DNA of 64,000 nt, from the NCBI RefSeq assembly GCF_003096055.1, contig NZ_CP029161.1, positions 434,001-498,000 of the forward strand, written 5' to 3'. Origin of the DNA: Buchnera aphidicola (Melanaphis sacchari) (lineage in GTDB: Bacteria > Pseudomonadota > Gammaproteobacteria > Enterobacterales > Enterobacteriaceae). The notes beneath the pieces are model-generated. The model saw only the letters and a list, made by a program, of their open reading frames with translations. It was not told where the DNA came from and searched no databases. Shown here piece by piece: positions 32,486-63,716 of this stretch; within the stretch, counting starts at the first letter, position 1, and each line of letters starts with the position of its first letter. The position numbers and the translations under genes were made by a program.

Positions 32486-33445
32486 ATGAAGCTTATACGA
32501 AATATTAATAATACAAATATAATTAACCCTTCGTCTATTGTAAGTATTGGAAATTTTGATGGAATGCATTTAGGACATCAAAAAATATTTTCTGAATTAT
32601 GTACAATAGGAAAAACAAACAATATATCAAAAACGATAATTATATTTGAACCGCAACCATTAGAATTTTTAAATAAAAAAAAAGCACCAAAAAGGCTTAT
32701 GCAGTTTCAACAAAAAATTAAATATATCCAAAAATGGAAAATTGATACCATCTTATGTATTAAATTTAATAAATATTTTTCATCTTTAAGTCCAGAAATA
32801 TTTATTGAAAAAATTTTAATAAAAAAACTAAATACAAAATATATAATTATCGGAGAAGATTTTAAATTTGGATCAAAAAGACATGGAAATATTTCTTTAT
32901 TAAAAAAACTTGAAGAAAAATATCAATTCAAAGTTATTGAAATTCCTTCCATATATAAAAAAAATAATAAAGTTAGCAGTACCAATATTAGAAAATATTT
33001 AATAGCGGATAAAATTGAATTAGCTAGATCATTACTTGGTCGTCCATTTAGCATTTTAGGTCGAGTTATCCATGGAAATAAAATCGGAAGAAAAATAGGT
33101 TATCCCACAGCTAATATTCTGTTATATCCTAACAATCCTATACAAAATGGAGTATATGCAGTAAAAGTTTCTTGTTTTCAGAACATAAAATTTATAGGTG
33201 TATGCAACATTGGAATCAAAAAAAATTATATTACTCAAAAAAAACAAAAAATTCTCGAAGTGCACTTATTTGATACAAATATAAATTTATATGAAAAAAA
33301 AATAGAAATATTTTTATATAAAAAAATAAGAAATGAATTTAATTTTTCTTCAATAAAATTTTTAAAAAATCAGATATCTAAAGATGTTCAATTTACTCAA
33401 AAATATTTTAAAAAAATAAAAGAAAATAAAAAAAAATATGAATGA
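32486..33445 (+). CDS. ribF: Bifunctional riboflavin kinase / FAD synthetase
   Basis: Converts riboflavin to FMN and then FAD. It is 319 residues (313 in E. coli). The N-terminal nucleotidyltransferase domain has I-G-N-F-D-G-M-H-L-G-H-Q (about 22-33) and S-S-T-N-I-R-K-Y-L. The C-terminal kinase domain has G-R-V-I-H-G-N-K-I-G-R-K-I-G-Y-P-T-A-N and N-G-V-Y-A-V. The 3' end overlaps ileS by 8 bp. It starts a ribF-ileS-lspA-ispH-dapB run, as in enterobacteria. The flavins feed NuoF and other flavoproteins. Confidence 0.96.
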   Translation: MKLIRNINNTNIINPSSIVSIGNFDGMHLGHQKIFSELCTIGKTNNISKTIIIFEPQPLEFLNKKKAPKRLMQFQQKIKYIQKWKIDTILCIKFNKYFSSLSPEIFIEKILIKKLNTKYIIIGEDFKFGSKRHGNISLLKKLEEKYQFKVIEIPSIYKKNNKVSSTNIRKYLIADKIELARSLLGRPFSILGRVIHGNKIGRKIGYPTANILLYPNNPIQNGVYAVKVSCFQNIKFIGVCNIGIKKNYITQKKQKILEVHLFDTNINLYEKKIEIFLYKKIRNEFNFSSIKFLKNQISKDVQFTQKYFKKIKENKKKYE

Positions 33446-36248
33446 TTATAAAAAAAGCTTGAATTTACCTAAAACAAAATTTTCAATGAAAGCTAATCTT
33501 TCTGTAAAAGAACCAAAAATCCTATACAATTGGCATCAAAATAATATTTATGAATTAATTCGTACAAAAAAGAAAGAAAAAAAAATATTTTTTTTACATG
33601 ATGGGCCTCCATATGCTAATGGAAATATTCATATAGGACATGCAGTCAACAAAATTTTAAAAGATATAATTATAAAATCAAAAAATATGTCAGGATTTGA
33701 TGCACCCTATATACCATCGTGGGACTGTCACGGTTTACCAATTGAACAAAAAGTTGAGGAAATAATAGAAATTCAAAAAAAAGATATAAATATTGCCGAA
33801 TTTCAAAAAAAATGTAGAAAATATGCGAAAAAACAAGTAAAAAAACAAAAAGAAGACTTTATTCGATTAGGAATTATCGGGGATTGGGAAAAATCTAATC
33901 TTACAATGGATTTTAAAAACGAAGCAAATATTATTAGAACATTATCTAAAATTATTAAAAAAAAATATTTATATAGAGATTTTAAACCTGTTCATTGGTG
34001 CTTAAAATGTCACTCATCCTTATCAGATGCAGAAATTGAATATTTTGAAAAAAAATCAGATTCAGTTTTTGTGGCAATGAAAAATAATCAAGAAAATTTT
34101 AAAAAAATATTTAATATTCAAATATCAAATAATAAAGATATATGTCTTCCCATTTGGACTACGACGCCATGGACACTCCCTTCTAGTCAAGCTATTGCAA
34201 TTCATCCCGATTTTGAATATCAATTAATAGAAACTGAAAAATATAATTTTATTTTAGAAAAAAAATTAGTTGATAAAGTATTAAATCTTTTCAAGATAAA
34301 TCATTGGAAACTTTTAACTTCTTTTTTAGGAAAAAAAATAGAGGGAATAAAATTTTTACATCCATTTCTTTCAAGGAAAGTTCCTGTAATATTAGGCGAA
34401 CATGTAACTAATGAATCGGGTACAGGAGCTGTTCATACATCACCTGATCATGGACAAGATGATTATCTTGTCGCGCAAAAATATAATATAAAAACACTTA
34501 ATTTAATAAATTCTAAAGGTTTTTATAAAAAAAATACTCACCCTAAATTAGATGGTATCAATATATTCCAAGCTAATAAAATAATTATTAATTTGTTAAT
34601 TGAAAATAATTGTTTATTAAAATACACAACCTTAAAACATAATTATCCATATTGTTGGAGACATAAAACACCTGTTATATTTAGAGCTACACCACAATGG
34701 TTTATTAAAATTAATAAAATACTTCGCAAAAAAACTCTGGAAAAAATAGAAAAAGTTTTATGGATTCCTGAATGGGGGAAATCTAGAATATCAGAAATGA
34801 TAAAAAAAAGACCCGACTGGTGTATTTCCAGACAAAGAAGATGGGGTGTTCCAATGTCTATTTTAATAGATAAAAAAACCAAAGAAATTCACCCTAAAAA
34901 TTTTTTTATTATGGAAAAAATAGCACAAAGGGTAGAATTAGAAGGCATTGAAGCATGGTGGAATATAAATTTAAAAAGTATTATTAATGAAAAACATCAT
35001 GAATATTATCAAATATTCGATATATTAGATGTATGGTTTGAATCAGGAAATACTCATACGACAATAAAGTATCACAATAAAAAATATTCTACAAATAGAG
35101 CAGACATGTTTTTGGAGGGTTCTGATCAACATAGAGGTTGGTTTATGTCGTCGTTAATTATATCTATGTTGATAAACAAAAAAGCACCATATTCTGAAGT
35201 GTTAACACATGGATTTGTGGTTGATGGAAAGGGAGAAAAAATGTCTAAATCTATAGGAAATACTATTAGTCCTAATGACATAGTAAATACTTTAGGAGCA
35301 GATGTTTTAAGATTGTGGGTAGCTTCGTCTAATTATTCTAACGATATTTCAATATCTCAAGAAATATTAAAAAATACTTCAGATATTTATCGAAGAATAA
35401 GAAATACAATACGTTTTATGTTAGCAAATATTTATGATTTTGATCCTGAAATACATATTGTACCTAATGAAAAAATGATTTTTTTAGACACATGGATCAT
35501 TCATCAAGCAAAAAAAACACAAGAAGAAATCATTCGCTCATATTCTAAATATAATTTTCATGCTGTAATACAACGTTTAATGTACTTTTGTTCTATTGAA
35601 ATGGGTTCTTTCTATCTTGATATTATCAAAGATCGTCAATATACATTAAAAAAAGATAGTTTAGCACGAAGAAGTTGTCAAACAGCTATATATTATATCA
35701 TTCATGCTTTTGTTCGTTGGATAGCTCCAATATTGTCATTTACTGCTAATGAAACTTGGGACTTTTTACCAGGACAAAAATCTCAATACGTATTTACAGA
35801 AGAATGGTCTGATAAATTATTTTATTTAAAATCAAATAATATATTTAATAATGATTTTTGGAATCAATTAATTTCTATTAAAAATGAAGTTAATAAGCTT
35901 TTAGAAGAAGAAATTAAAAATTATAATATAAAGAATTCATTAGAAGCTTCAATTACATTATATATTTCGTCAAAAATACGAGATAAATTAAAAATTTTAG
36001 GCGATGAATTAAAATTTTTATTTTTAACATCACACGTAATAATTAAATCATATGATACCGCACCAAAACACGCAAAAAAAAGCAATATTATATCTGAATT
36101 AAAAGTATCTTTAAAAAAAGTCAAAGCAAATAAATGTCCAAGATGCTGGCACTATAATATTACTGTAAAAAATACTCAAAATTCTAAAATTTGTACACGT
36201 TGCATTTCAAATACAGTAGGAAATGGTGAAAAACGATTATTTATATGA
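33438..36248 (+). CDS. ileS: Isoleucyl-tRNA synthetase
   Basis: Charges tRNA-Ile. It is 936 residues (938 in E. coli). Class I motifs are present: D-G-P-P-Y-A-N-G-N-I-H-I-G-H near 57-70 and G-E-K-M-S-K-S-I-G. The C-terminal zinc finger C-P-R-C-W-H-Y and C-T-R-C is intact. The CP1 editing domain keeps T-T-T-P-W-T-L-P and the H-T-S-P-D-H-G-Q-D-D stretch with the catalytic Asp, but residue 250 is Ser where E. coli has Asn. ATG at 33438 inside the end of ribF; the 3' end overlaps lspA by 4 bp. No sign of frameshift despite many A-runs. Confidence 0.98.
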   Translation: MNDYKKSLNLPKTKFSMKANLSVKEPKILYNWHQNNIYELIRTKKKEKKIFFLHDGPPYANGNIHIGHAVNKILKDIIIKSKNMSGFDAPYIPSWDCHGLPIEQKVEEIIEIQKKDINIAEFQKKCRKYAKKQVKKQKEDFIRLGIIGDWEKSNLTMDFKNEANIIRTLSKIIKKKYLYRDFKPVHWCLKCHSSLSDAEIEYFEKKSDSVFVAMKNNQENFKKIFNIQISNNKDICLPIWTTTPWTLPSSQAIAIHPDFEYQLIETEKYNFILEKKLVDKVLNLFKINHWKLLTSFLGKKIEGIKFLHPFLSRKVPVILGEHVTNESGTGAVHTSPDHGQDDYLVAQKYNIKTLNLINSKGFYKKNTHPKLDGINIFQANKIIINLLIENNCLLKYTTLKHNYPYCWRHKTPVIFRATPQWFIKINKILRKKTLEKIEKVLWIPEWGKSRISEMIKKRPDWCISRQRRWGVPMSILIDKKTKEIHPKNFFIMEKIAQRVELEGIEAWWNINLKSIINEKHHEYYQIFDILDVWFESGNTHTTIKYHNKKYSTNRADMFLEGSDQHRGWFMSSLIISMLINKKAPYSEVLTHGFVVDGKGEKMSKSIGNTISPNDIVNTLGADVLRLWVASSNYSNDISISQEILKNTSDIYRRIRNTIRFMLANIYDFDPEIHIVPNEKMIFLDTWIIHQAKKTQEEIIRSYSKYNFHAVIQRLMYFCSIEMGSFYLDIIKDRQYTLKKDSLARRSCQTAIYYIIHAFVRWIAPILSFTANETWDFLPGQKSQYVFTEEWSDKLFYLKSNNIFNNDFWNQLISIKNEVNKLLEEEIKNYNIKNSLEASITLYISSKIRDKLKILGDELKFLFLTSHVIIKSYDTAPKHAKKSNIISELKVSLKKVKANKCPRCWHYNITVKNTQNSKICTRCISNTVGNGEKRLFI

Positions 36249-55823: not shown

Positions 55824-58223
55824 TCACATCCTTAAGGTAATATTCAATTCATCTTTTAATGCTTTAACGCACCCATCAATCATTAAATTAATTTCATTTT
55901 CTTCCAGTGTTTTATTTTGATCTTGAAAAATAAAACTAATTCCTAAACTTTTTTGTTCATTAGAAGTATCATGAGGAAAATATACATCAAATAAATTAAT
56001 ATCTACCGCTTGATTTAAAAAAAATTTTTTACATATTTTTATAATTTCAGAAAATAAAATATCTTTTTTTACTAAGATTGCTATATCGCGACGACTTTCA
56101 GGAAATTTAGAAACTTTTTTTATTTTAAAAAAAGGAGCAATCGGAATATTATTTAATGATAACTCAAATAAAAAAGTTGAGGAGTCTAAATTTAATTGCT
56201 TTTCTAACCTTGGATTTATTTTTCCCATGCGCCCAATAAATAAATTATTTATATAAATTTTTGCACTTTGTTCTGGATGCAAACTTGGTATTTTTGAATT
56301 TTTAAATTCTATATTTTTTTTATTGTGTACTAATTCTAATACAGACTCAACATCACCTTTCAAATCATAGAAATCTAATTTTCTACGTTTTGAAAACCAA
56401 TTTTCTTTTTCTTTAAAACCACTTATTATTCCAGCTAAAAATAGCTCTTGATTTACTCCTAAAATTTTATTTTTATCAATTGAAAAACAAAAACCACGTT
56501 CAAATAAACACATACTATCTTGTCTACGATTAGAATTATATACAACACTCTTAAGAAGTCCAGGCCATAATGATAAGCGCATAGATGATAAATCTTTAGA
56601 AATGGGATTAGAAAGTAATAACGAATGAATATTAGGAAACATAATACTTTGTAAATCTGGATTAACAAACGAATAAGTTATTATTTCATGATAACCTCTA
56701 AAAGCTAAGAAAGAAGTTGCTTTATCTAATAAATCTTCTTGAAAATCTTTTTTTTGAGTAAAAATTAATTTTTCTTTTATTGGAGAGAACAAAATATTAT
56801 TATAATTATAAATACGCAGTATATCACTAATTATATCTTCTTCAATTAAGATATCTGATCTCCATCCAGGTGGTATAACTTCAAGATATTCTTTTTGAAC
56901 ATCTAATACAATATATTCAAGACGTGATAAAATGTTTAAAATTAAAGAAAATTGAATAGTATGACCAACTAATTTTTTGAATTTATTTAAATTTAATTTA
57001 ATTTTTTTTACTAATATTAAATTAGTATCTTGTTTCTGTACCTTTTTGCTAATAGGACCAACTTGACCACCACATATTTTAATAATTAAATTTGTAGCAT
57101 ATTGTAAGGCATATTTTTGTAAATTAGGATCAATTCCATAATTATGGTAATCTAAAATTTTATTATTATTTATTTTTTTAAGTATATTTAATGTAAATTC
57201 TCTATCAATATAATATGAACATAAAAATATACTTGTAGTTTTTTCATTTATCTCTACAGATTGAGAATTTATATTGCCAGGTATAAATAATATTTTTTTA
57301 TTATCGGAAAAAGATAAAATGTTTTTATTTAAAATTATTTTTGGATAAGCATTTGAATGTAAAAATTCTTTTTCGTTAGACATACTAATTTGAATAAAGC
57401 GATTTATTTTATTGGCATCAATTATATTTAAAGGTTGACCAATTTCAATTAAAACATAATTAATAATATTATCAATAATATTTTTTGATAACAAATCACA
57501 AAAAAATAATTTTTTTTTCATCCAAAAAGGAGTACTTACATTTAAGTTAGTATTTTTAATAATACGACCAAAAAAATTAATATTTTTTTTTCTAACATTA
57601 ATATTAATTGGAAATTTATCTACAATTTCTTCTGAAAGAACATTTAATTTTAATTTAATTTTTTCTAAATTATTTATCACAGCTATATTACGCGCTATTC
57701 CTAAAATACTTAAACTGTCTGCACGATTTGGCGTAGCAGAAATTTTAATAATATTATCTTGAAGCAAAAAATAATCTTTAATTTGAGCGCCAACAGGAGC
57801 TTTTTTAGGAAGTTCTATAATATCATTACTATAATTATTAAATAAACCTAACTCAAAAAAAGAACAAAGCATGCCTTCAGATTTTACCCCTTGAATTATT
57901 TTTAAATCAATTTTGAATTGATTTCGTAAAACACTACCAATAGTAGCTACCACTACTTTAATGTTATTTCGGCAATTAGGAGCTCCACAGACAATATTTA
58001 GTACTTTTTCACGACCTATATCTAATTTAATAATTTTTAGTTTTTTAGATTTTGGATGATTAAAACAGCTAATTATTTTTCCAACGATAACACCTTTAAA
58101 AGTAGGATTAAAAAAATTAACTGATTCAATTTCTATTCCGGAATCAATTATTTGATTTTGTAAAGTAATACTATCAATATTTGGATTGACCCATTCTCGT
58201 AACCAATTTTCACTAAATTTCAT
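55824..58223 (-). CDS. pheT: Phenylalanyl-tRNA synthetase beta subunit, editing site degenerate
   Basis: Beta subunit of the alpha2-beta2 enzyme. It is 799 residues (795 in E. coli). The N-terminal tRNA-binding domain (about 40-150, with I-V-C-G-A-P-N-C) and the C-terminal anticodon-binding-like domain (S-R-R-D-I-A) are conserved. The B3/B4 editing domain (about 210-390) is not. Residues needed in E. coli to hydrolyse Tyr-tRNA-Phe are changed: Arg244 to Leu, His265 to Asn, Gly318 to Asn, Glu334 to Cys, and the T-D-A stretch at 354-356 to N-K-I. Aminoacylation should be intact, editing probably lost. It is 9 bp after pheS. Confidence 0.96.
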   Translation of the reverse strand: MKFSENWLREWVNPNIDSITLQNQIIDSGIEIESVNFFNPTFKGVIVGKIISCFNHPKSKKLKIIKLDIGREKVLNIVCGAPNCRNNIKVVVATIGSVLRNQFKIDLKIIQGVKSEGMLCSFFELGLFNNYSNDIIELPKKAPVGAQIKDYFLLQDNIIKISATPNRADSLSILGIARNIAVINNLEKIKLKLNVLSEEIVDKFPININVRKKNINFFGRIIKNTNLNVSTPFWMKKKLFFCDLLSKNIIDNIINYVLIEIGQPLNIIDANKINRFIQISMSNEKEFLHSNAYPKIILNKNILSFSDNKKILFIPGNINSQSVEINEKTTSIFLCSYYIDREFTLNILKKINNNKILDYHNYGIDPNLQKYALQYATNLIIKICGGQVGPISKKVQKQDTNLILVKKIKLNLNKFKKLVGHTIQFSLILNILSRLEYIVLDVQKEYLEVIPPGWRSDILIEEDIISDILRIYNYNNILFSPIKEKLIFTQKKDFQEDLLDKATSFLAFRGYHEIITYSFVNPDLQSIMFPNIHSLLLSNPISKDLSSMRLSLWPGLLKSVVYNSNRRQDSMCLFERGFCFSIDKNKILGVNQELFLAGIISGFKEKENWFSKRRKLDFYDLKGDVESVLELVHNKKNIEFKNSKIPSLHPEQSAKIYINNLFIGRMGKINPRLEKQLNLDSSTFLFELSLNNIPIAPFFKIKKVSKFPESRRDIAILVKKDILFSEIIKICKKFFLNQAVDINLFDVYFPHDTSNEQKSLGISFIFQDQNKTLEENEINLMIDGCVKALKDELNITLRM

Positions 58224-60095: not shown

Positions 60096-60635
60096 TTATT
60101 TCTTTTTGGGCGCTAATACCATAATCATTTGGCGACCTTCAATTCTAGATGGAAACGATTCAACAACAGCTAATTCAATTAAATCATTTTTTACTCTATT
60201 TAATACATTAATGCCAATTTTTTGATGCGCCATTTCGCGACCTCGAAAACGCAAAGTAATTTTTACTTTATCACCGCATTCTAGAAAGCGAATTAAATTA
60301 CGTAATTTAACTTGATAATCTCCTTCATCTGTACTAGGTCTAAATTTTATTTCTTTCACTTGAATTATTTTTTGCTTTTTTTTCTGCTCTTTAGATGATT
60401 TACTTTTTTCATAAAGAAATTTTCCATAATTCATAATACGACAAACTGGTGGTTCTGAATTTGGACTGATTTCTACTAAATCCAGTCCTAGATCTTCAGC
60501 TTTTTCCAACGCTTCACGCAAATGAACTATACCTATTTGATCGCCTTCAGAACCTGTAAGGCGAACTTTTTTCGCACGGATTTCATTATTAATACGATTT
60601 GGCCGTGTAAATTGCATTTTTTTTCCGCCTTTGAT
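60096..60635 (-). CDS. infC: Translation initiation factor IF-3, apparent ATC start
   Basis: Binds the 30S subunit and checks start-codon pairing. An ATG at 60617 would give 173 residues, but the frame upstream encodes K-G-G-K-K exactly where E. coli IF-3 starts (M-K-G-G-K-R-V-Q). There the start codon is AUU; here the same position is ATC (60633-60635), eight bases after GGAGG and three bases after the thrS stop. This gives 179 residues (180 in E. coli). IF-3 discriminates against AUU-like starts and thereby limits its own synthesis. The body is highly conserved, e.g. [12 protein letters not shown] and R-F-R-G-R-E-M-A-H. If ATG 60617 were used, the ribosome site would be 26 bases away. Confidence 0.93.
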
Positions 60636-60638
60636 ACT

Positions 60639-62567
60639 TTATTCCTCCATTTGAAAAAAGCTATGCGTAATAATTTCTTTTTGCAGCTTTTTAATAAAAT
60701 AATCAATATCAATACAATTTAAATTCATACCATTTCTGCTTCGAATAGATATTTTTTCAGATTGAATCTCTTTTTCTCCGCAAATAAGTATATATGGAAT
60801 TTTATGTAATATATGTTCACGAATTTTTAAACTTATTTTTTCGTTTCTTGTATCTGAATCAACACGAATATTAAAACTCGAAAATATTTTTACTAATTTT
60901 TGAACGTAATTAATTTGGGCCTCAGTAATACTTATAATTACTACTTGAATAGGAGATAACCATGTAGGCAAACTACCAGAGCATTCTTCAATTAAAATAC
61001 CAATGAAACGTTCGATCGAACCTAATACTGCGCGATGAATAATTATAGGAAACTTTCGTTCATTATATTTATTGATATAAAAAGCATTTAAACGAACTGG
61101 TAAATAAAAATCAAGTTGAATAGTTCCACATTGCCAATCACGATTCATAGAATCTTTTAAAACAAATTCTATTTTAGGCCCATAAAAAGCTCCCTCTCCT
61201 TCTTGATGTTCATAATTTAAATTATTTTGAATTAATACTTCAGATAAATCCTTTTCTGCTTTGTCCCAAATAATATCTTCTCCGATACGATGTTTTGGGC
61301 GTGTCGAAAGTTTTACTAATATTTTTTTAAAATTAAATACGCTATATATATCATATATCATTTTAATACAATTATTTATTTCTAATCGAACTTGCTCATG
61401 AGTGCAAAATATATGTGCATCATCTTGCGTAAAATTACGAATTCTCATAAGTCCATGTAATGACCCAGAAGGCTCGTTACGATGACAACTCCCAAATTCA
61501 GCCATACGAATAGGCAAATCTCGATATGATTTTAATTGTTGATTAAAAATTTGAACATGACCAGGACAATTCATTGGTTTAATACAGTATTCGCGGTGTT
61601 CAGATGAACTTGTAAAAATAGCATCTTTATAATTATCCCAATGACCGCTCTTTTTCCATATTAATGAATCTATTAATAATGGTGTTTTAACTTCTTTATA
61701 TTTGTATTTTATTAGCTTTTTTCGAATAAAACTTTCTAATTGATTAAAAATTATCCAACCATTATGATGCCAAAAAATCATTCCTGGCGATTCTTCTTGC
61801 ATATGATATAAATTTAAAAAATGACCAATTTTTCTATGGTCTCTTTTTTTTAGTTCATCAATATATTTTAAATATTGATCTAATTCTTTTTTAGTAATCC
61901 AAGCAGTACCATAAATACGCTGCAACATTTTACTCTTAAAATTACTCTTCCAATATGCTCCTGAAACTTTTTCTAATTTAAAATTTTTGCAAAAATCAAT
62001 ATTTAAAGCTTGCATTCCAGTATCAAAATCTATGTAACTTTCATGATAATACAAAGAAATAAAATTATTTTTTTTAACGATTTTTTCTATTAAAAATAAT
62101 TTATATATTTCTTTTTTTTCTTTAAATATTCTTAAAGCATCATCAAATAATACTAATTTGTTAAAAATATCATATTTTTTTTTAACAAGATTCCTCATAT
62201 TTTTTTCTAATAAAAACAGATCATTTTTTTGAAAATTATTTGAAAAATCTATATCACAGTAAAAACCATATTTTGTAATACCACCTTCTCCAATTTTACA
62301 TGAAGGCCAAGTTTTTTTAGCTGCATAAGCTAATAACTGTACACAAGAATTTCGAATAATATTTAATGCTTTAACATCTTTTTGACTAAAAAAAACAATA
62401 AAAGAATCGTTTTTTATTATAGTATTTAGACTTGAAAAAATACCATTAATAGAAACAGAAACAAGAGATTTAATTAAATTACATTTTTTATTTTTTATAA
62501 CTTCTCTTAATGAGATAGAGTGATTATATACCTGCTGACTTCCATCACAAAATCTTATTACAGGCAT
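60639..62567 (-). CDS. thrS: Threonyl-tRNA synthetase, editing centre residues replaced
   Basis: Charges tRNA-Thr. It is 642 residues, as in E. coli, and aligns without shifts. Domains in order: TGS-like N1 (about 1-62), N2 editing domain (about 63-224), class II catalytic core, and C-terminal anticodon domain. The core keeps zinc-binding C-P-G-H and motif 2 around F-G-S-C-H-R-N-E-P-S. In E. coli the editing site uses His73, His77, Cys182 and His186; here these are Asn, Gln, Asp and Gln. Removal of mischarged Ser-tRNA-Thr is therefore probably lost. Its 3' end carries the infC ribosome site. Confidence 0.97.
   Translation of the reverse strand: MPVIRFCDGSQQVYNHSISLREVIKNKKCNLIKSLVSVSINGIFSSLNTIIKNDSFIVFFSQKDVKALNIIRNSCVQLLAYAAKKTWPSCKIGEGGITKYGFYCDIDFSNNFQKNDLFLLEKNMRNLVKKKYDIFNKLVLFDDALRIFKEKKEIYKLFLIEKIVKKNNFISLYYHESYIDFDTGMQALNIDFCKNFKLEKVSGAYWKSNFKSKMLQRIYGTAWITKKELDQYLKYIDELKKRDHRKIGHFLNLYHMQEESPGMIFWHHNGWIIFNQLESFIRKKLIKYKYKEVKTPLLIDSLIWKKSGHWDNYKDAIFTSSSEHREYCIKPMNCPGHVQIFNQQLKSYRDLPIRMAEFGSCHRNEPSGSLHGLMRIRNFTQDDAHIFCTHEQVRLEINNCIKMIYDIYSVFNFKKILVKLSTRPKHRIGEDIIWDKAEKDLSEVLIQNNLNYEHQEGEGAFYGPKIEFVLKDSMNRDWQCGTIQLDFYLPVRLNAFYINKYNERKFPIIIHRAVLGSIERFIGILIEECSGSLPTWLSPIQVVIISITEAQINYVQKLVKIFSSFNIRVDSDTRNEKISLKIREHILHKIPYILICGEKEIQSEKISIRSRNGMNLNCIDIDYFIKKLQKEIITHSFFQMEE
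60644..60648 (-). promoter_or_regulatory. Ribosome binding site for infC inside the end of thrS
   Basis: GGAGG on the minus strand lies in the last codons of thrS, eight bases before ATC at 60635. Its position decides the non-canonical start of infC. Confidence 0.75.
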
Positions 62568-62669: not shown

Positions 62670-63716
62670 TTAAAAACGACGATCCACTGCATCTGCTAAT
62701 TGCTTAATAATTAAAATACTATCCTCCCAGTTTAAACAAGCATCAGTAATTGACTGCCCATATACAAGAGGTTTATTTTTTTCCACAATTTGAAAACCTT
62801 CTTTTAAAAAGCTTTCAATCATTACTCCAAAAATACTTTTTGAACCTTGAGAAATTTGCTTACAAATAGATTTAGCTACATTTTTTTGACGAAGATGTTC
62901 TTTTAAACAATTTCCATGACTAAAATCTACCATTAAACGTTCAATTAAATTAAATTCACGTAAATTTTTAATAGTTAATTCAATATCACTAGCATGATAA
63001 TTAGGAGTAAGCCCGCCTCTCATAATTATATGTCCATACGGATTTCCACTAGTATGATTAATAGTCATTTGACCATCTTTATTTGGAGCTAAAAATAAAT
63101 GACGAACTTGCGCCGCTCTAATGGCATCAATTGCAATCCGTGTATTTCCATCTGTACCATTTTTAAAACCAACTGGACAAGAAAGAGCAGAAGCCATTTC
63201 TCTGTGAATTTGGCTTTCTGTAGTTCTAGCTCCTATTGCACCCCAACTGATTAAATCTGCAATAAATTGACCAATCACCATATCTAAAAATTCTGTAGCA
63301 GCAGGCATGCCTAACGCATTAACATCTAATAACAATTTACGCGCTACAGCAAGTCCATGATTTACTCTAAAAGTACCATTTAAATCTGGATCTGAAATTA
63401 ACCCTTTCCAACCGACTACTGTTCTTGGCTTTTCAAAATATGTACGCATTATTATTTCAAGACGATCTTGATATTTAATGCGTAAATCATATAGTCGATG
63501 AGCATATTCAACTGCAGCAATAGGATCATGAACAGAACATGGACCTATTACAACAAGCAACCTTAAATCTTCACCAGTCATAATACGAGCTATATTTTGT
63601 CTTGCCGTAATAACATTATCCATTACTTCTGATGTGATAGCGTATTTTTTTGCTAATTCAGATGGAGTAATTAATGGATCAATTCGTATTGTACGTAATT
63701 CATCTGTTTTTTTCAT
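62670..63716 (-). CDS. aroH: 3-deoxy-7-phosphoheptulonate (DAHP) synthase, AroH type
   Basis: First enzyme of the shikimate pathway, joining phosphoenolpyruvate and erythrose 4-phosphate. It is 348 residues, exactly the length of E. coli AroH (Trp-sensitive isoenzyme), and starts K-T-D-E-L-R-T-I-R-I. Conserved features: I-G-P-C-S-V-H-D with the metal Cys, M-R-T-Y-F-E-K-P-R-T, G-A-R-T-T-E-S-Q-I-H-R and D-F-S-H-G-N-C. AroG or AroF are alternatives, but the N-terminus and length favour AroH. The residues around 147-177, where feedback-resistant mutations occur in E. coli AroH, look normal, so feedback inhibition is possible. ATG start. The 284 bp upstream, to the window end, hold no gene I can support. 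Confidence 0.95.
   Translation of the reverse strand: MKKTDELRTIRIDPLITPSELAKKYAITSEVMDNVITARQNIARIMTGEDLRLLVVIGPCSVHDPIAAVEYAHRLYDLRIKYQDRLEIIMRTYFEKPRTVVGWKGLISDPDLNGTFRVNHGLAVARKLLLDVNALGMPAATEFLDMVIGQFIADLISWGAIGARTTESQIHREMASALSCPVGFKNGTDGNTRIAIDAIRAAQVRHLFLAPNKDGQMTINHTSGNPYGHIIMRGGLTPNYHASDIELTIKNLREFNLIERLMVDFSHGNCLKEHLRQKNVAKSICKQISQGSKSIFGVMIESFLKEGFQIVEKNKPLVYGQSITDACLNWEDSILIIKQLADAVDRRF

Follow-up and report, generated by a model that had tools for sequence, protein, structure and literature searches.

A replaced editing centre in the threonyl-tRNA synthetase of Buchnera aphidicola

The window analyzed here, a stretch of 64,000 nucleotides from Buchnera aphidicola (Melanaphis sacchari), contains thrS, the gene for a threonyl-tRNA synthetase (ThrRS) that has none of the four residues of an editing-competent N2 domain, H73, H77, C182, and H186 in E. 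coli. The reading that we favor, with a probability of roughly 0.75, is that this is a Buchnera-type ThrRS with a kept synthetic site and a chemically dead N2 editing site, with the old catalytic centre refilled by other residues and the domain retained for its fold. The features concerned are the following.

60639..62567, minus strand: thrS, threonyl-tRNA synthetase of 642 amino acids, full length (N1, N2, catalytic core, and anticodon-binding domain), by translation, alignment, and Pfam
61896..62381, minus strand: N2 editing domain, residues 63 to 224 (limits assigned from E. coli numbering), predicted to be folded, borderline tRNA_SAD match
62349..62351, minus strand: codon 73, catalytic His73 replaced by Asn, by alignment to E. 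coli ThrRS
62337..62339, minus strand: codon 77, His77 replaced by Gln, by the same alignment
62325..62327, minus strand: codon 81, Tyr, by comparison with relatives
62256..62258, minus strand: codon 104, Tyr104 replaced by Cys
62022..62024, minus strand: codon 182, catalytic Cys182 replaced by Asp, by alignment to E. coli ThrRS
62010..62012, minus strand: codon 186, His186 replaced by Gln, by the same alignment

The minus strand of this gene translates to 642 residues and a stop, and phmmer placed residues 1 to 642 of E. coli ThrRS (1qf6) on residues 1 to 642 of the window protein with zero gaps (843.9 bits). An earlier note on this DNA had claimed such a residue-for-residue alignment, with N/Q/D/Q in place of H/H/C/H at positions 73/77/182/186, and both statements were borne out; the span that it gave, 62010 to 62351, is exact, with the four codons falling at its ends and inside it. 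Its claim of an intact catalytic core also holds for the synthetic-site residues checked: the zinc ligands C334, H385, and H511 are retained, as are R363, R375, R377, Q381, D383, K465, and Q484. The catalytic core (PF00587, 186.4 bits) and the anticodon-binding domain (PF03129, 69.3 bits) both score over their cut-offs. The N2 domain reached 19.0 bits against the Pfam tRNA_SAD cut-off of 24 with hmmscan, and 23.7 bits in the genome search (24.1 when its neighbours are added, and so scored as passing), the weakest ThrRS match to this family among the 36 genus genomes described below; the N1-N2 fold is nevertheless predicted by modelling. The closest named relatives found in a protein search are from Buchnera aphidicola; one match (P0002) was dropped, as it resembles an E. 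coli ThrRS carrying an internal duplication. The source genome comprises 637,486 bases in three contigs. Next to thrS lie an infC-like gene (60096 to 60617) and an aro-like gene (62670 to 63716), both so named by resemblance.

To place these replacements, we use "genus" for one group of 36 genomes, outside which the Buchnera of Pemphigus and of Periphyllus lie, and compare it with 22 members of the order with larger genomes (1.7 to 5.3 Mb; the 0.35-Mb genome G059, with K/F/S/L at the four positions, was excluded). All 22 carry H/H/C/H, whereas a replaced pocket is found in all 36 genus genomes, which together with the gap-free alignment rules out chance or misalignment. The loss that the earlier note described is therefore real in this genome but not specific to it. 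Nor do the four positions behave alike: position 73 does drift (Y in 26 genomes, R in 3, C in 3, H in 2, N in 1, and S in 1), but Q77 (34 of 36, with H in the other two), D182 (35 of 36, with N in the other), and Q186 (36 of 36) are nearly invariant. Position 81 is Tyr throughout the genus and His in 20 of the 22 larger-genome relatives, and position 104 is Cys in 33 genus genomes and Ser in three. Beside the new residues, K156 (35/36), D180 (36/36), and G184 (36/36) are retained; residues 95, 96, 183, 185, and 188 are variable, with G95 kept in 4/36 genomes and P96 in 0/36. Another 33 Buchnera-like proteins, which overlap with the genus genomes, all have Q186; two have H77, and at position 182 one protein carries N and another G (P0005).

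All four positions are termed critical for editing in E. coli ThrRS, where the editing kcat falls 7000-fold in H73A, 70-fold in H186A, and more than 500-fold in C182A and C182S (PMC4041444). Since all four residues are changed and the E. coli mutants lose this much activity, editing is very unlikely, and Ser-tRNA-Thr editing by the window ThrRS is, judged from its residues, very probably dead. The genome search for stand-alone proteins of the PF07973, PF04073, and PF02580 families, a check that the earlier note had proposed, returned none, the only matches being AlaRS, ThrRS, and ProRS; we therefore rejected trans-editing by a symbiont protein of these three families. Mutant data, the retained synthetic site, and the lack of a stand-alone factor of these families all support the predicted loss of Ser-tRNA-Thr editing. 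Serine misincorporation at threonine codons would follow should serine still be activated at the synthetic site: it would be charged on tRNA-Thr at that site's own error rate and not be removed, so that some threonine codons would be read as serine.

The ThrRS is not the only synthetase affected. For the Leu, Phe, Pro, Ile, Val, and Ala enzymes, we inspected positions that we take to be the important editing residues; two of the genes lie in the window.

33438..36248, plus strand: ileS, IleRS, comparison case; T241, T242, T243, T246, H333, and D342 kept, N250 replaced by Ser
55824..58223, minus strand: pheT, PheRS beta, comparison case; H265N, G318N, T354N, and A356I, with an alignment gap at the position of E334

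The editing domain of AlaRS belongs to the same tRNA_SAD family as N2 of ThrRS, and its H564, H568, Q584, C666, and H670 are retained in all 30 genus genomes read, while position 646 varies. Likewise, IleRS retains the six residues listed above, with Ser at 250, in 6/6 genomes, and ValRS retains T222, K277, T279, and D286 in 6/6, with five other inspected positions varying. The editing site of PheRS beta, on the other hand, is altered in all 31 genus genomes read: N316 (31/31, from I), P314 (30/31, from G), N318 (29/31, from G, with H in the other two), and H265N (30/31) replace the E. coli residues, a P-G-N-x-N motif is present in 28/31, and the position of E334 varies freely. As in ThrRS, a fixed swap stands here beside one drifting position. 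In LeuRS, T247, T248, T252, and D345 are all retained in 11 of 30 genomes, and at least one is lost in the remaining 19, including the source genome (T248N and T252L; L266, G000:C1, match 150650-151192, outside the window). ProRS of the source genome retains K279 and D350 but not H369. The losses in ThrRS and PheRS look ancestral to the genus, that in LeuRS ongoing. The editing loss noted for ThrRS is thus not an isolated event, with PheRS and LeuRS also altered and the main Ala, Ile, and Val editing residues kept.

In one genus genome, thrS is split across two reading frames, with A-runs within the gene (L038, G019:C1:3600-5800), and its pheT, close to the start of the contig, is fragmented too; the cause could be slippage, decay, or an error in assembly.

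How could an inactive site be so uniform? In the scenario that we propose, selection for Ser-tRNA-Thr editing would have weakened inside the host cell and editing would then have been lost, probably before the genus diversified. The dead N2 domain would have been retained because its fold may still be useful to the enzyme, through contacts with the tRNA acceptor end or through stability. Q77, Y81, C104, D182, and Q186 would pack and hydrogen-bond in the old catalytic centre and would now be maintained by selection on structure, while many sister symbionts would have lost the domain instead. The fixed replacement pocket is best read as such structural refilling; a rebuilt metal site was set aside, as N or Y, Q, D, and Q would make poor zinc ligands. 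The fixation of the replacement residues suggests that selection can continue to act on an editing domain that is dead, so that such domains need not be taken for simple decay.

The alternative that survives best, although we consider it unlikely, is neutral decay, in which N2 is eroding and the shared residues were inherited with too little time to change. It would account for the relaxation of N2 in the genus relative to larger-genome relatives, for the variation at positions 73, 95, 96, 183, 185, and 188, and for the scattered residues or missing N2 of other small-genome relatives. However, N2 is under purifying selection in the genus (omega = 0.21), and positions 77, 182, and 186 changed their amino acid 2, 1, and 0 times on the genus tree against a median of 5.5 for N2 columns, with five synonymous changes at each of codons 77 and 186; codon 182 weighs less, since it had none. 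At the five conserved swapped positions (77, 81, 104, 182, and 186), amino acid changes are fewer than at N2 positions drawn at random (p 0.008, for a set that positions 81 and 104 joined after the data were seen).

Several points nonetheless weigh against structural refilling of a dead site. Position 73, with 10 amino acid changes, runs counter to the pattern of the other five, and the swap is not uniform, with His73 in two genus genomes, His77 in two, and Gly182 in P0005. Relative to the core, N1 (2.96 versus 1.64) and the anticodon domain (2.50 versus 1.92) are faster in the genus as well, which makes the relaxation seen in N2 partly a general one. The predicted fold is weak evidence, as the alignment given to the model came from relatives with the fold intact. 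Moreover, the near-invariance of Q77, D182, and Q186 would equally fit a site with some remaining activity, and the E. coli substitutions at 182 were Ala and Ser (PMC4041444), whereas the window protein has Asp. Finally, EF-Tu or further steps could curb misincorporation.

Small-genome members of the family offer a wider view. Among the 70 read out of 72 with 1.2 Mb or less, ThrRS is intact in 11, has lost at least one editing residue in 41, and lacks N2 in its open frame in 18, some of them with broken N2 remnants upstream; N2 retention is hence not obligatory. The 41 include nine with only H73 lost, one with only C182 changed, and 31 that have lost at least two; H73 is lost in 40 of the 41. 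The Buchnera of Pemphigus has Y/Q/C/Q, that of Periphyllus N/H/L/Q, and three Candidatus Pantoea edessiphila genomes have K or R/Q/C/Q. The Pemphigus and Pantoea patterns indicate that Q77 and Q186 can coexist with Cys182. Other sister symbionts with Gln186 have S, F, L, Y, or I at 182, which fits packing better than catalysis. Across the 52 of 70 genomes with N2, Gln makes up 21 of 29 replaced residues at 186, 13 of 25 at 77, and 2 of 40 at 73 (Fisher p of 3e-9 for 186 versus 73 and 2e-5 for 77 versus 73, with relatives treated as independent). On a tree built by a quick method from the catalytic and anticodon parts only, with 32 of 94 inner forks open and long symbiont branches, parsimony counts only two changes from His to Gln at position 186; at position 77 it counts one such change and four reversals from Gln to His. 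Given p-values blind to kinship and so few changes on this tree, we do not rely on convergence of His-to-Gln.

Within one sister genus, two genomes are unlike each other in ThrRS, one (L180, G178) having full N1-N2 with N/Y/D/Q and the other (L077, G280) a 424-residue ThrRS frame without N1-N2. The ThrRS frames of two 0.3-Mb relatives (G160:C1:72174-73367 and G269:C1:207246-208457) each include 7 TGA codons, and their matches begin only at residue 233 or 230; the TGA codons suggest that these genomes use TGA as a sense codon.

Beyond decay, one might speculate that the replaced ThrRS pocket, and that of PheRS in parallel, is a new selected state, with non-hydrolytic binding of the tRNA 3' end or another job, such that editing was exchanged rather than lost; we regard this as quite improbable. 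We give slightly less credence to a changed chemistry, in which the Q/D/Q pocket would bind or hydrolyse aminoacyl-tRNA, with Asp182 serving as a base or through a charge that positions the CCA end. The near-invariant residues do adjoin the retained K156, D180, and G184, and Pantoea edessiphila combines H77Q and H186Q with a kept Cys182. Yet position 73, the costliest to mutate in E. coli (PMC4041444), drifts freely, G95 and P96 are mostly gone, and Gln186 persists in sister symbionts whatever the residue at 182 among those listed above. Trans-editing by another symbiont protein or by the host is very unlikely: ProXp-ST proteins act on Ser- and Thr-charged tRNAs in other systems (PMC7373986) and the AlaRS editing residues are retained, but the search of the three families gave no free-standing protein. 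A sequencing or alignment artefact can be dismissed, as the same pocket type recurs in 36 assemblies and in named Buchnera protein records.

If structural refilling of a dead site is correct, the proteome of a long-studied obligate mutualist would be made without Ser-tRNA-Thr proofreading, and PheRS proofreading would probably be absent too, as would that of LeuRS in many strains, while AlaRS, IleRS, and ValRS keep their main residues; this would give a ranking of the translation errors that are tolerable in a minimal cell. As a kind of event, the loss of editing is already known from host-restricted bacteria. A survey by Melnikov et al. in 2018 (PNAS 115:E11505) reportedly describes degenerated editing domains in host-restricted species, and it may already list the ThrRS of Buchnera, genomes in which three synthetases are affected, or fixed replacement pockets. 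In the excerpts returned by an open-licence literature search, no paper naming threonyl-tRNA synthetase editing in Buchnera was found. Less expected, and perhaps surprising to a specialist, is that the replacement pockets of both ThrRS and PheRS are fixed.

Several known systems invite comparison. E. coli ThrRS (1qf6; N1-N2 editing fragment 1tje) shares the gap-free alignment, the domains, and the synthetic-site residues, but has H73/H77/C182/H186 where Buchnera has N/Q/D/Q. Two mitoribosome chains, 8k2a_Lm and 5ool_7, have an N1-N2-like fold at 15 to 16% identity in a separate ribosomal protein, which we take to be mL39 and presume to do no editing. The yeast mitochondrial ThrRS MST1 works without N2-based editing but lacks the domain (PMC4267643), as do the N2-less enzymes of sister symbionts, whereas the 642-residue window ThrRS keeps N1-N2. 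A close parallel is Mycoplasma, in which the ThrRS, PheRS, and LeuRS editing sites are altered with charging kept (Li et al. 2011, as described in PMC7373986, PMC10057733, and PMC4014445), the LeuRS and PheRS losses being confirmed biochemically and by mass spectrometry (PMC10057733). Together with the general trend published for host-restricted bacteria (PMC10057733, PMC11020763), these reports bear out the statement of the earlier note that synthetase editing loss has been reported in host-bound microbes. The window ThrRS shows the same combination of altered editing site, kept synthetic site, and reduced genome. According to a review, two of these editing activities may be missing from Mycoplasma genomes, and no case with three or more is known (PMC7373986); the source genome has three altered sites, in ThrRS, PheRS, and LeuRS. 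Buchnera thus resembles Mycoplasma, as described in these sources, in its small genome, host-bound life, and affected trio, and differs in losses that are predicted from sequence, in a ThrRS domain that is predicted to remain folded, and in replacements that are fixed genus-wide.
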